The position numbers were made by a program, and so were the translations under genes. Positions 7,967-11,691 of a stretch of 52,278 nucleotides of DNA are shown piece after piece (position 1 is the first letter of the stretch; each line of letters starts with the position of its first letter). The notes beneath the pieces are model-generated. The model was not told the DNA's origin. It searched no databases and was given only the letters and a program-made list of their open reading frames with translations. This stretch comes from Tepidanaerobacteraceae bacterium. Lineage in GTDB: Bacteria > Bacillota > Thermosediminibacteria > Thermosediminibacterales > Tepidanaerobacteraceae. Location of the stretch: the NCBI GenBank assembly GCA_029982615.1, contig JARRBK010000008.1, positions 1 through 52,278 of the forward strand. Reading direction: 5' to 3'.

Positions 7967-9397
7967 TTAAAAATAAAGATCTCGCTCGCCCTGTTCTATC
8001 CTCGCTAGCCTTTCAATGGTCTTTTGCTTTATTACCGGATTTTCAATGTCTTCAAGGCTTTTTCTTATAACATCCTCTCCCACCTGGCGAGTCTTGGGCT
8101 CGGCATAGTCCATCAGGAATTCTTTGAACGTTAGGATAGCATTGGGCAGGCAGCAGTTCTGAATATTGCCCGTTTTCGCCAGCTGCATGAAACGGTCACC
8201 GGTACGGCCCTGCCTATAGCAGGCGGTACAATAGCTCGGAAGGTAGCCCCTGGTGCACAGTGACAGCAGCACTTCGTTGGGGGTCCTGCGGTCTTCCACC
8301 AAAAACTGGGGAGCATGTTCGCCGCCTTCAGACTTTCTGGATATTTCCTCGTGATATCCGCCCACACCGGTGCATGAACCAGCACTAATCTGAGATATGC
8401 CCACATCTATGACCTCGTCTCTGAAATCCGGTCTCTCTCTAGTAGACAGAATCATTCCAGTATAAGGCACCGCCAGGCGCACGATGGCTACTATTTTTTT
8501 GAATACTCTATCAGGTACCAGATAGGGAAAATTTTCAATATTTATGCCAAAGGCGGGCCTTATCCTCGGAAAAGATATGGTATGGGGGCCCACGCCATAT
8601 GTCTCATCCAAATGGCGGACGTGCTGCATCAAGGCTAAAACTTCATACTTGTAATCATAAAGGCCGAAGAGCACGCCCAGGCCCACATCGTCTATTCCAC
8701 CCGCCATCGCCCGGTCCATAGCCGTGGTGTGGTAATCGTAATCGCTCTTGGGCCCCGAAGGGTGCATATACTTGTACGTGGGCCTGTGATAAGTTTCCTG
8801 GAAAAGCACGTAGGTGCCGATGCCTGCATCTTTCAGTTTGCGGTAGTTTTCCACCGTCGTCGCAGCTATGTTTACGTTAACCCGACGGATGCTTCCATTT
8901 TTGAGTTTAGTATCGTATACGGTTTTTATCACTTCCAGAGTGTAATCTATCGGGCAGTTAACCGGATCTTCCCCGGCTTCCAGAGCCAGCCGCTTGTGCC
9001 CCATATCTTCCAGTATCCTTACTTCCTCCCGCACTTCATCCATGGTCAGCCTTCGCCTTGAGGTCTTATTATCCCTCCTGTAGCCGCAATAGCGGCAGTT
9101 GTTTACGCAAAAGTCGCTAAAATAGAGGGGGGCAAAAAGAACTATCCTGTTGCCGTAGATTTTCTTTTTGAGCTCATGGGCTATGGAATACATTTCAGCC
9201 AAGAGTTCTTCGTCCTCGCAGTAAAGCAAAGAAGCCACATCCAACAGGTCCAGTCCCTGGGCCTGTTTTGCTTTTTCCAATATCTCCCTTATAGCCTCAG
9301 AACTTGCTCCTTTCCCTTTTTCCATAGCTTCCCCTATGGCTTTATCGTCTATAAAATCTGCCTTCATGCTTTCCAAATCGGTTTTCGAATGAAACAC
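7967..9397 (-). CDS. hydG: [FeFe]-hydrogenase maturase HydG (tyrosine lyase, radical SAM)
   Basis: A 476-residue radical SAM enzyme that cleaves tyrosine to p-cresol and dehydroglycine and makes the CO/CN-bearing iron synthon for the H-cluster. The SAM cluster motif is C97-x3-C101-x2-C104 in FCVNNCRYCGYRR; GEDP and GLGVLFGLYDY lie in the barrel. The C-terminal auxiliary cluster cysteines are in CTACYRQGRTGDRF and IQNCCLPNA, which separate HydG from ThiH. The start is GTG at 9397, six nt after GGGGAG, fitting the N-terminus better than later ATGs. HydE, HydF and the hydrogenase itself are not in this window, so hydG stands alone here. Its leader carries a small ORF and a terminator. Confidence 0.95.
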   Translation of the reverse strand: MFHSKTDLESMKADFIDDKAIGEAMEKGKGASSEAIREILEKAKQAQGLDLLDVASLLYCEDEELLAEMYSIAHELKKKIYGNRIVLFAPLYFSDFCVNNCRYCGYRRDNKTSRRRLTMDEVREEVRILEDMGHKRLALEAGEDPVNCPIDYTLEVIKTVYDTKLKNGSIRRVNVNIAATTVENYRKLKDAGIGTYVLFQETYHRPTYKYMHPSGPKSDYDYHTTAMDRAMAGGIDDVGLGVLFGLYDYKYEVLALMQHVRHLDETYGVGPHTISFPRIRPAFGINIENFPYLVPDRVFKKIVAIVRLAVPYTGMILSTRERPDFRDEVIDVGISQISAGSCTGVGGYHEEISRKSEGGEHAPQFLVEDRRTPNEVLLSLCTRGYLPSYCTACYRQGRTGDRFMQLAKTGNIQNCCLPNAILTFKEFLMDYAEPKTRQVGEDVIRKSLEDIENPVIKQKTIERLARIEQGERDLYF

Positions 9398-9491
9398 AAA
9401 AATCTCCCCTTTACTTAATTTAAAACAAAATTTTCAAAAAGTGATTATGCTTTCGGGATCTTCCATTATTCTGTTCATATTTGCACAAATC

Positions 9492-9523
9492 AAAAAAGGC
9501 TTTATCCTTCGGGAGGAAAAGCC
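9492..9523 (-). terminator. Intrinsic terminator in the hydG leader
   Basis: On the minus strand GGCTTT-T-CCT loops back onto AGG-ATA-AAGCC (9498-9523), followed immediately by six T residues (9492-9497). It lies about 95 nt upstream of the hydG start with no other gene before it, so it would stop any transcript started further upstream unless it is read through. This arrangement suggests attenuation. Confidence 0.55.
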
Positions 9524-9546
9524 ACAAACACACCGTATTTTGCCAT
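9502..9546 (-). CDS. Putative 14-residue leader peptide before hydG
   Basis: MAKYGVFVAFPPEG, with ATG at 9546 six nt after a GGGGGGAG ribosome-binding site. Its stop codon lies within the descending arm of the leader terminator hairpin, so a translating ribosome would overlap the hairpin. No homologue is known to me; chance cannot be excluded. It could instead be the remnant N-terminus of a lost gene. Confidence 0.35.
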   Translation of the reverse strand: MAKYGVFVAFPPEG

Positions 9547-9846
9547 ATTTTCTCCCCCCTTCGCTCAGGATTCCCCTCACGTCAGGAATATTTGTTTATT
9601 TAATTATATTCCACATATTTCTAAAATGCAACGCTTTTTTTTGCGCTCAGAACCAGCAGAGCGGGCGCTGAGTAAGCGAGCACTGCGGCCAACACGCAAT
9701 GCACATGCCGAATTGACGGCTACATTAAAATCAAATTTACATTCAGTAACCAAATTTTAGATTGGAGAATATTTTAAAGTGATATCTGTTTTAAAAACAC
9801 CAATTTATTATTTCACAGCAAATTTTATTTGAAAGGAAGGTCTATT

Positions 9847-11691
9847 ATGTGTGGAATCACAGGCTGGATAGATTTTGAAGGCGACTTGACACAAAAAAAA
9901 CCCCTCCTTGAAAAAATGACCATGACTCTTTCAAGGAGGGGGCCCGATGATGTGGGATATGCCTTGTTCCCCCATGCAGCCTTCGGCCACAGGAGGCTTA
10001 TAGTGGTGGACCCCGCTGGGGGAGCGCAGCCCATGTTGCGTAAAATCGGCGGCCGCATCTACTGTATAACATACAACGGAGAACTTTACAATACTGAAGA
10101 AGTGCGAAAAGAGCTTTTAAGCCTGGGATATAACTTTACCTCCCGCTCGGATACAGAAGTGCTGCTGGTTTCATATATTGCTTGGGGAGAAAGCTGTGTA
10201 GACCGTTTAAACGGCATATTCGCCTTTGGCATATGGGATGAAGCCGGACAGAAGCTCTTCATGGCTCGGGACCGCCTGGGCGTAAAACCTCTGTTTTATG
10301 CGAAAAGAGCAACTTCCTTCATCTTAGGTTCGGAACTCAAAGCGCTTCTGGCCCACCCTATGGTGAAGCCGGAACTGGATACCACTGGCCTTGCGGAAAT
10401 ATTCGCTCTTGGGCCCGCCAGAACCCCCGGCTGCGGGGTTTTCAAGGGTATTGAAGAACTAAAGCCAGGATTTGCATTGTCTCACACTAAATCAGGCACC
10501 CGCACCTGGCAGTATTGGTTGCTGGAAAGCCGGCCTCATGAGGATGATATGGATACTACCGTCCAAAAAGTATCTTTCCTTATAAAAGATACTGTCCGAA
10601 GGCAGCTGGTATCCGATGTGCCGGTGTGCACCCTGCTGTCTGGAGGCCTGGACTCCAGTGCCGTTACAGCCATGGTTCCCCATGCATTCAGCCACAATGG
10701 TGAAAACACAGTAAAGACTTTTTCAGTGGACTACGCCGGTAACGACATGTATTTCAAGGCGACCGAATTTCAGCCAAACAGCGATTCATATTTCGTGCAA
10801 AAAGTATCCTCTTATCTCGGAACTGAGCATCATCAAGTAATAATAAGAAACGAAGATCTTGCCGATGCCCTGGAGGATGCGGTGCTGGCAAGAGACCTGC
10901 CGGGTATGGCTGATGTGGACTCGTCGTTATATCTTTTTTGCCGGGAAGTAAAAAGAGATGCCACCGTAGCCCTGTCCGGCGAGGGTGCCGACGAGATTTT
11001 CGGTGGATATCCCTGGTTCCGCCGTCCCGACGATTTCAACTCCGACACCTTCCCCTGGACCCGCGTGATGAATTTGAAAACTAGTATTCTTTCTAGGGAT
11101 TTGGTCAATTTGATAAAACCGGAAGAATATGTAAAAAACCGATACCGCGAAGCTCTGGACGAAGTGCCCCGGTTTGCGGAAGAAAGCCCTTTCGACCGGC
11201 GCATACGGGAAATCACCTACCTCAGCATCACCCGCTTTATGCCGACGCTTCTGGATAGAAAAGACCGCATGAGCATGTTTACCGGCCTTGAAGTAAGAGT
11301 GCCTTACTGTGATCACCGCCTTGTACAGTATGTATGGAACATCCCGTGGCACATGAGAAATTGTGGAGGCATGGAAAAAGGAGTGCTTAGAAAAGCCATG
11401 GAAGGTTTTTTGCCACAGGAAGTGCTTAACCGCAAAAAAAGCCCTTACCCCAAAACTCACAACCCGGAATATGCTGCCATGGTCAGGGATAAGCTGCTGG
11501 AAATTTTAAGCGACGCTGCTTCCCCCCTGCTGCCGTTTATAAACAAAGAAGCAATAATTGAACTGGCCCGGGCAGATACATCCCGCTTCGATATCCCATG
11601 GTTTGGGCAGCTCATGACCGTCCCTCAGCTTTTCGCGTATTTAATCCAGACGGATTTCTGGATGAGAAATTACAGTGTCACAGTTCTATAG
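9847..11691 (+). CDS. asnB: Asparagine synthetase B (glutamine-hydrolysing)
   Basis: A 614-residue AsnB. The N-terminal class II glutaminase domain starts MCGITGWI with Cys2 as nucleophile and includes RRGPDDVGY, YNGELYN and RSDTEVLL. The synthetase domain has the pyrophosphate loop SGGLDSSAVT, SGEGADEIFGGYPW and RKDRMSMFTGLEVRVPY. It converts aspartate, glutamine and ATP to asparagine. The frame extends six codons upstream, but ATG at 9847 is chosen because Cys must follow the removed Met and GAAAGGAAGG lies 6 nt before it. It is on the plus strand left of oriC, so head-on to replication, and ends 1 bp from the convergent GH10-like gene. All catalytic motifs are intact. Confidence 0.95.
   Translation: MCGITGWIDFEGDLTQKKPLLEKMTMTLSRRGPDDVGYALFPHAAFGHRRLIVVDPAGGAQPMLRKIGGRIYCITYNGELYNTEEVRKELLSLGYNFTSRSDTEVLLVSYIAWGESCVDRLNGIFAFGIWDEAGQKLFMARDRLGVKPLFYAKRATSFILGSELKALLAHPMVKPELDTTGLAEIFALGPARTPGCGVFKGIEELKPGFALSHTKSGTRTWQYWLLESRPHEDDMDTTVQKVSFLIKDTVRRQLVSDVPVCTLLSGGLDSSAVTAMVPHAFSHNGENTVKTFSVDYAGNDMYFKATEFQPNSDSYFVQKVSSYLGTEHHQVIIRNEDLADALEDAVLARDLPGMADVDSSLYLFCREVKRDATVALSGEGADEIFGGYPWFRRPDDFNSDTFPWTRVMNLKTSILSRDLVNLIKPEEYVKNRYREALDEVPRFAEESPFDRRIREITYLSITRFMPTLLDRKDRMSMFTGLEVRVPYCDHRLVQYVWNIPWHMRNCGGMEKGVLRKAMEGFLPQEVLNRKKSPYPKTHNPEYAAMVRDKLLEILSDAASPLLPFINKEAIIELARADTSRFDIPWFGQLMTVPQLFAYLIQTDFWMRNYSVTVL

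Follow-up and report, generated by a model that had tools for sequence, protein, structure and literature searches.

What controls hydG in the window (the whole 52,278-nucleotide stretch of DNA that was analysed), and what part does the short ORF in front of it play? The preliminary description had proposed that hydG may be controlled by attenuation coupled to translation of this ORF, or that the ORF is the stub of a lost gene. Its letters and coordinates for a 14-codon ORF, a hairpin and six T (9492-9546) are correct on the minus strand; the distance to hydG, put at about 95 nt, is 94 nt from the last T of the U6 tract to the GTG start, with the gene identified by TIGR03955; and the "strong ribosome-binding site" of the ORF is the purine run GGGGGGAGAA at 9550-9559. 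Downstream of TATAAT the minus strand reads UUCCUGACGUGAGGGGAAUCCUGAGCGAAGGGGGGAGAAAAUAUG..., then come the 14-codon ORF, the hairpin, U6 and hydG:

9626..9631, minus strand: probable -35 box TTGCAT, inferred from reading the sequence; like stretches precede TATAAT in three relatives (L003-L005), by eye
9603..9608, minus strand: probable -10 box TATAAT after a 17-nt spacer, from reading the sequence; TATAAT also lies 5′ of the element in L003-L005
9555..9588, minus strand: conserved RNA core P2; matched at 9553-9590 by model R2 (53.2 bits, the window itself being in the R2 training set) and by model R3 (47 bits)
9550..9559, minus strand: purine run GGGGGGAGAA, proposed 5′ strand of an antiterminator and Shine-Dalgarno (SD)-like run before the ORF
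9502..9546, minus strand: 14-codon ORF MAKYGVFVAFPPEG, ATG at 9546, TAA at 9502-9504 in the terminator stem
9511..9520, minus strand: UUUUCCUCCC, part of both the 5′ arm of the terminator and the proposed antiterminator; pairs with 9550..9559
9498..9523, minus strand: terminator hairpin GGCUUUUCCUCCCGAAGGAUAAAGCC
9492..9497, minus strand: U6 tract of the terminator (six T in DNA); hairpin and tract together span 9492-9523
9403..9412, minus strand: SD-like AAAGGGGAGA of hydG
7967..9397, minus strand: hydG, GTG start at 9397 (TIGR03955, 666.8 bits, E 1.3e-200)

From comparison of these sequences with those of relatives, we consider it likely that the leader is a conserved cis-regulatory RNA of an unmatched class, which marks the H-cluster maturation regulon and acts by attenuation, with a small molecule as its most likely effector. 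The transcript is predicted to start at about 9595 (minus strand), from TTGCAT-17-TATAAT at 9603-9631; the TATAAT at 9603..9608 is absent from the list of a consensus promoter scan of the window. The region 9390-9600 is not more stable than its shuffles (z -0.16). Upstream of the leader lies a divergent ORF, asnB-like by eye; at its start there is a 17-bp inverted repeat with eight T (window 9901-9941, minus strand), directed toward the hydG promoter.

The conserved part, which the preliminary description does not mention, has the pattern 5′-CCUGA-[3 bp]-RAGGG-loop-CCUGA-[3 bp]-RAGGG-3′ (window 9555-9588), and its core, CCUGACG..AGGG...CCUGA.CG, is kept in 13 hydG leaders of the family-level groups f1 and f2 and in L029 (14 sequences, 21 invariant columns). 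In the window it reads UUCCU-GA-CGU-GA-GGG-GAAU-CCU-GA-GCG-AA-GGGGG, drawn as one nested hairpin, P2, whose minimum-energy fold when taken alone has -12.8 kcal/mol (UUCCU..CGU..GGG-GAAU-CCU..GCG..GGGGG). P2 is pseudo-symmetric, with two CCUGA/RAGGG motifs, and contains two like tandem-GA internal loops (GA/GA and GA/AA in the window). In A3, a MAFFT alignment built without structure (36 rows, 33 distinct), 92.3% of 297 cells pair under the nested fold, and covariation is 0.224, against 0.156 in shuffles (0 of 500 reach the observed value) and 0.025-0.088 when the structure is slid along the alignment. Changes on both sides of a pair all fall in helix b, where they affect all three pairs; in A5, which was fitted to R2, 87.4% of cells pair and covariation is 0.255. 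Unpaired cells in helix b number 19 of 99 in A3 and 42 of 123 in A5, partly through one-base shifts, and neither the count of pairs changed on both sides nor that of "further types" exceeds shuffles in either alignment. Our regular expression places no constraint on the loops, so their pairing can be tested independently: the mean energy of the loop duplexes is -2.46 against -1.85 in permutations (reached in 1272 of 100,000; p 0.013; 32 distinct copies), strict Watson-Crick runs occur in 12 of 32 copies against 7.6 (p 0.046), and complementarity by 3-bp runs (20 of 32 against 16.4) is not significant (p 0.08). A3 thus points to a covarying secondary structure of the kind expected of a riboswitch, the permutation tests being weaker. 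Tandem kissing hairpins, under which 86.2% of A3 cells pair, were dropped in favor of the nested fold, because the inner helix lengthens in long-loop copies (L083, L141, L167) and more cells pair. The outer and inner registers of R2 are off by one base from this final drawing, and R3 mends the inner one. In 16 of 54 copies, where 0.2 would be expected, the element is preceded by an extra 5′ hairpin of the CUGA-helix-RAGG type, which is absent from the window.

We searched 398 genomes of the window's phylum with three successive models. R1 (f1/f2 plus G067) gave matches in 219 of the 398 genomes at E<=0.1, mostly noise, and first pointed to the leader of TM1266-hydE in f18, of hydG in G207 and of hydE in f53; outside the training lineages it had 22 matches at E<1e-4, eight of them before hyd genes (f18, f26, f53), while some of the other 14, among those read, lie in coding-like DNA. 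R2 (36 sequences) had 29 matches at E<=5e-4 in 24 of the 398 genomes, and all 29 have a hyd maturase, TM1266 or ECF transporter gene downstream on the same strand; its training sequences cover 19 of the 24 genomes, and the matches outside training (G121, G154, G255, G338, G342) are in a fitting context in five of five cases. The covariance model R3 had 61 matches in 54 genomes at E<=0.005, of which 59 precede hyd, TM1266, aspA or ECF genes and two (G259, G311) look like chance; where the context of R3 loci was read in one round only, 13 of 15 fit. The element is thus found as a same-strand leader before a coherent gene set, as riboswitches are. With the expression that leaves the loops free, 32 of 130 TM1266 upstream regions have at least one sense hit, 36 in all, and there are five antisense hits; at least two of the sense hits (L194, L214) look coding, and another expression, the one listing loop sequences, missed L082. 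The loop, antiterminator, terminator, 5′-hairpin and ATG counts leave aside L132, L153 and a coding hit in L080. By our count the element occurs in about 29 family-level groups, 21 plus eight from R3 (f4, f25, f26, f37, f49, f60, f118, f132), including f6, f44, f68, f88 and f114, where it is seen by regular expression alone or with weak R2 scores; in 32 of 57 HydG genomes no copy was found by these searches. A pattern scan of a collection of 84,980 species returned 17 stretches, 13 of them in Clostridia-type contigs, with Fervidicola, Thermovorax, Thermosediminibacter and Tepidanaerobacteraceae among the named carriers, from which the phylum is taken to be Bacillota; the other four (Boseongicola, Bacteroidales, Streptomyces, Thermoplasmata) were taken as chance.

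Sorted by first gene, the 61 R3 matches precede TM1266 (29), hydG (14), hydE (9), hydF (1), aspA-hydF (1) and an ECF transporter (5), besides the two chance-like ones. TM1266 is a small protein with the NCBIfam name of a putative hydrogenase-system regulator and is the first gene of many such operons; in 27 of the 29 it starts within 500 nt on the same strand, and L297 and L298 were added by tblastn. TM1266 has hydE or hydG behind it where the reading was extended, and hydE is followed by hydG in L294, L299, L300 and L304. The order is element, hydF, aspA in L296 and element, aspA, hydF in L301; one genome has two copies, before hydE and before aspA-hydF (G200), and another has them before hydE and before hydG (G294). 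In vitro, aspartate together with its ammonia-lyase can serve as the nitrogen source for the H-cluster bridge, and ammonia-lyases are associated with hyd operons, according to the available part of PMC11736057; in Pelobacter, aspA lies between hydG and hydF (PMC3543383, in the part available). The ECF gene behind the element in f2 is a PF12822 S-component downstream of a TrpS-like ORF (named by eye), for which the substrate search gave a Pfam ECF_trnsprt match only, with no NCBIfam name above cut-off. At L120, L121, L122, L066, L067 and L075 the RNA and ECF S-component stand right behind the TrpS-like ORF, and a LivJ-like ABC operon follows at several of these loci. In L297 and L298 the element and TM1266 are followed by an NMT1/SsuA-like ABC transporter (families named on L298), with no hyd gene within the stretch read; the nearest solved protein for L298 is 3hn0. 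Judged by these contexts, the element marks the H-cluster maturation regulon of the phylum (hydE, hydF, hydG, aspA and TM1266, and in a few lineages a transporter).

Terminator hairpins are conserved beyond chance: one lies within 180 nt past the element in 40 of 48 hyd-type copies, against 4.5 in shuffles, and behind one of six ECF-type copies. By eye, among hydG leaders carrying the element, a hairpin with a U-tract is present in the other three of f1 and in eight of the nine of f2; the U-tract is absent from L014 (f2). In the window, GGGGGGAGAA and UUUUCCUCCC can form an antiterminator of 10 bp (duplex -14.2 kcal/mol) that has five nucleotides in common with the outer strand of P2. The leader folds at -29.8 kcal/mol when free, -29.1 with the antiterminator forced and -27.0 with P2 plus terminator, so that the alternatives differ by less than 3 kcal/mol. 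Since the outer helix and the antiterminator share those five nucleotides, it is possible, by this modeling, that the window leader is bistable. The antiterminator is clear in f1 and f2 only; elsewhere, pairing of the purine run with the 5′ arm is mostly no better than with shuffled arms. In the ECF leaders the purine run of the RNA stands at SD distance from the start codon and is the gene's own Shine-Dalgarno run. The copies in L292 and L293 end just a few bases short of the hydE and hydG start codons.

Taken together, the element probably switches the genes for assembly of the [FeFe]-hydrogenase active site on and off in many anaerobic bacteria, as far as gene context and leader sequence suggest. 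In the window, RNA polymerase would make P2 first. With P2 loose, the purine run GGGGGGAGAA would pair with UUUUCCUCCC and hydG would be transcribed; with P2 held closed by an effector, the five purines would be locked in the outer helix, the terminator would form and transcription would stop, so we infer that the effector turns the gene off. Where the copy lies at the start codon (the f2 ECF gene; hydE and hydG in G294), control by P2 would be at translation, through masking of the ribosome-binding run. The effector is most likely a small molecule of the pathway or of its import, as in a riboswitch, with the TM1266 protein as the chief alternative; we lean toward a metabolite over TM1266, since two different transporters carry the RNA. 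The signal might be a HydG/HydE intermediate, or a precursor imported by the ECF and ABC transporters. Going further, and tentatively, a candidate phylum-wide riboswitch (or TM1266-bound RNA) might measure the state of H-cluster assembly and set the three maturases and the ammonia source together. If so, one RNA across hydE, hydF, hydG, aspA and TM1266 would define the regulon, the ECF and ABC transporters would be likely partners of the H-cluster pathway, and there would be a short RNA ready for probing with candidate ligands and a handle for the expression of active hydrogenases.

The alternative that survives best, although we think it unlikely, is autorepression of the operon by TM1266, a dimer of which would bind both symmetric CCUGA/RAGGG motifs and keep P2 closed. 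The pseudo-symmetry of P2 would suit such binding, as would the position of TM1266 as first gene at 29 of the 61 R3 matches and the two copies behind which the stretch read contains TM1266 and an ABC transporter but no hyd gene. Of the 54 genomes matched by R3, 52 have TM1266 (E<=1e-20), the exceptions being the window genome, which is 68.5% complete, and the chance hit G311; the gene is common anyway (198 of 398 genomes), and 98 of 130 TM1266 upstream regions have no hit to the regular expression. Among 57 HydG genomes it occurs in 24 of 25 with the element and 23 of 32 without (p 0.018), and when families are counted instead the figures are 14 of 14 and 15 of 23 (p 0.013), but these p values are inflated by relatedness, the element list was set by hand with two weak cases (G026, G060), and the hydG upstream DNA of G023, G043, G068 and G072 lies outside the data. 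In f1 and f2, moreover, TM1266 sits away from hydG. A solved relative, 2nzc, is named as hypothetical.

We regard it as improbable that progress of a ribosome through MAKYGVFVAFPPEG decides whether the terminator forms. Attenuators of the trp/his type have a short ORF, a hairpin and a U-tract, and the ORF carries a run of regulatory codons. In some genomes the element leaders resemble this arrangement, but they have no such run and the ORF is kept in few lineages; no conserved peptide ORF with regulatory codons was found in the leaders compared. We searched for HydG in 101 relatives and read the upstream DNA of 30 loci. The alignment with related hydG leaders that had been proposed shows that the hairpin is kept and the ORF is not, outside f1 and L014. 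A 14-codon ORF is present in each of the four element-bearing f1 leaders (G000, G001, G005, G009), and one of 12 codons in L014; in all five an ATG follows the purine run and the stop TAA lies in the terminator stem, which speaks for a leader peptide. The peptides differ, however (MERQLTSKAFPPGG in L003, MERLCTSKAFPPGG in L004, MERLCTLKAFPPGG in L005, MSILKAAFPPGG in L014), and in f2 the RNA is without an ATG 4-14 nt past it in six of nine hydG leaders; in L006 and L007 an ATG is there but the ORFs are different, and L009-L012 have no start codon within the stretch scanned. Over all lineages, 17 of 48 hyd-type copies have an ATG at this distance, against 9.3 expected, and given this mild excess translation coupling may operate in some lineages. 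The window ORF is not beyond chance expectation: when the intergenic strand is shuffled by dinucleotides, 134 of 1000 shuffles contain at least one SD-preceded ATG ORF of 8-40 codons, and 355 of 1000 do so if GTG/TTG starts are allowed. A peptide as the conserved part was rejected, and the ORF is probably incidental to the conserved folded RNA. Of the two proposals in the preliminary description, attenuation of hydG gains from the conserved terminator, the possibly bistable leader and the conserved upstream RNA, while a peptide sensor loses by the f2 leaders that lack the ATG; the stub of a lost gene is unsupported, since conservation falls upstream of the ORF and in the terminator arm, with diverging codons in between. 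The single Tyr, offered as a hint of the HydG substrate, is not kept in the relatives' peptides, so that argument falls.

A reading of the conserved sequence as a transcription-factor operator in DNA, rather than as an RNA, is very improbable: the sequence is short, near-symmetric and near the predicted promoter, but it lies downstream of the predicted start, is strand-specific (36 sense against 5 antisense), covaries in A3, and comes with a terminator behind 40 of 48 hyd-type copies and the extra 5′ hairpin (16 of 54 against 0.2).

Returning to the conserved RNA, comparison with Rfam 15 placed no family above its gathering score on the element, either in the window or at the loci of 34 relatives (20 + 14), and gave no T-box match in the window. 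Histone3, snoRNA models and VR-RNA had window hits below threshold, which were taken as chance. No hyd leader RNA was among the literature matches listed, with a 2017 survey, reportedly of 224 motifs, outside the comparison. The available parts of PMC2864571, PMC11109978, PMC8632094 and PMC6429828 have no mention of hydrogenase, hydG, hydE or Moorella, and that of PMC10043782 none of hydrogenase or hydG; a Moco riboswitch candidate precedes cofactor genes (PMC2408646, in the part available). Within Rfam 15 and the literature covered, the best reading of the sequences is a new class of leader RNA of a known kind, a candidate riboswitch. Like metabolite riboswitches with intrinsic-terminator platforms, it is a conserved RNA before biosynthesis and transport genes, with a terminator and antiterminator that may be mutually exclusive, or with possible SD occlusion, but it differs in having no Rfam match. 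The Guanidine-II riboswitch (mini-ykkC) is small, with two related half-motifs, and lends itself to a drawing as tandem hairpins whose loops are complementary; the element is alike in size and in its two half-motifs, but it has no Rfam hit, its loop triplets covary, and more cells pair in the nested fold (92.3%) than in the tandem one (86.2%). ANTAR target RNAs, which are protein-bound attenuators, consist of two tandem hairpins with hexaloops A1..G4, and share with the element two repeated units before a terminator; they were rejected, since the window loops GACGTG and GAGCGA begin with G rather than fitting A1/G4, and the nested fold is favored. Two related genomes (L026, L027) have in common a stretch CCTCCTCCCCACCC...CAGGGTTT within about 250 nt before hydG, whose 6S-like look, by eye, is below the Rfam threshold and unconfirmed. 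Just past the TM1266 gene, L147:1841-1906 has a partial match to the Rfam TwoAYGGAY family, at 46 bits (cut-off 43).
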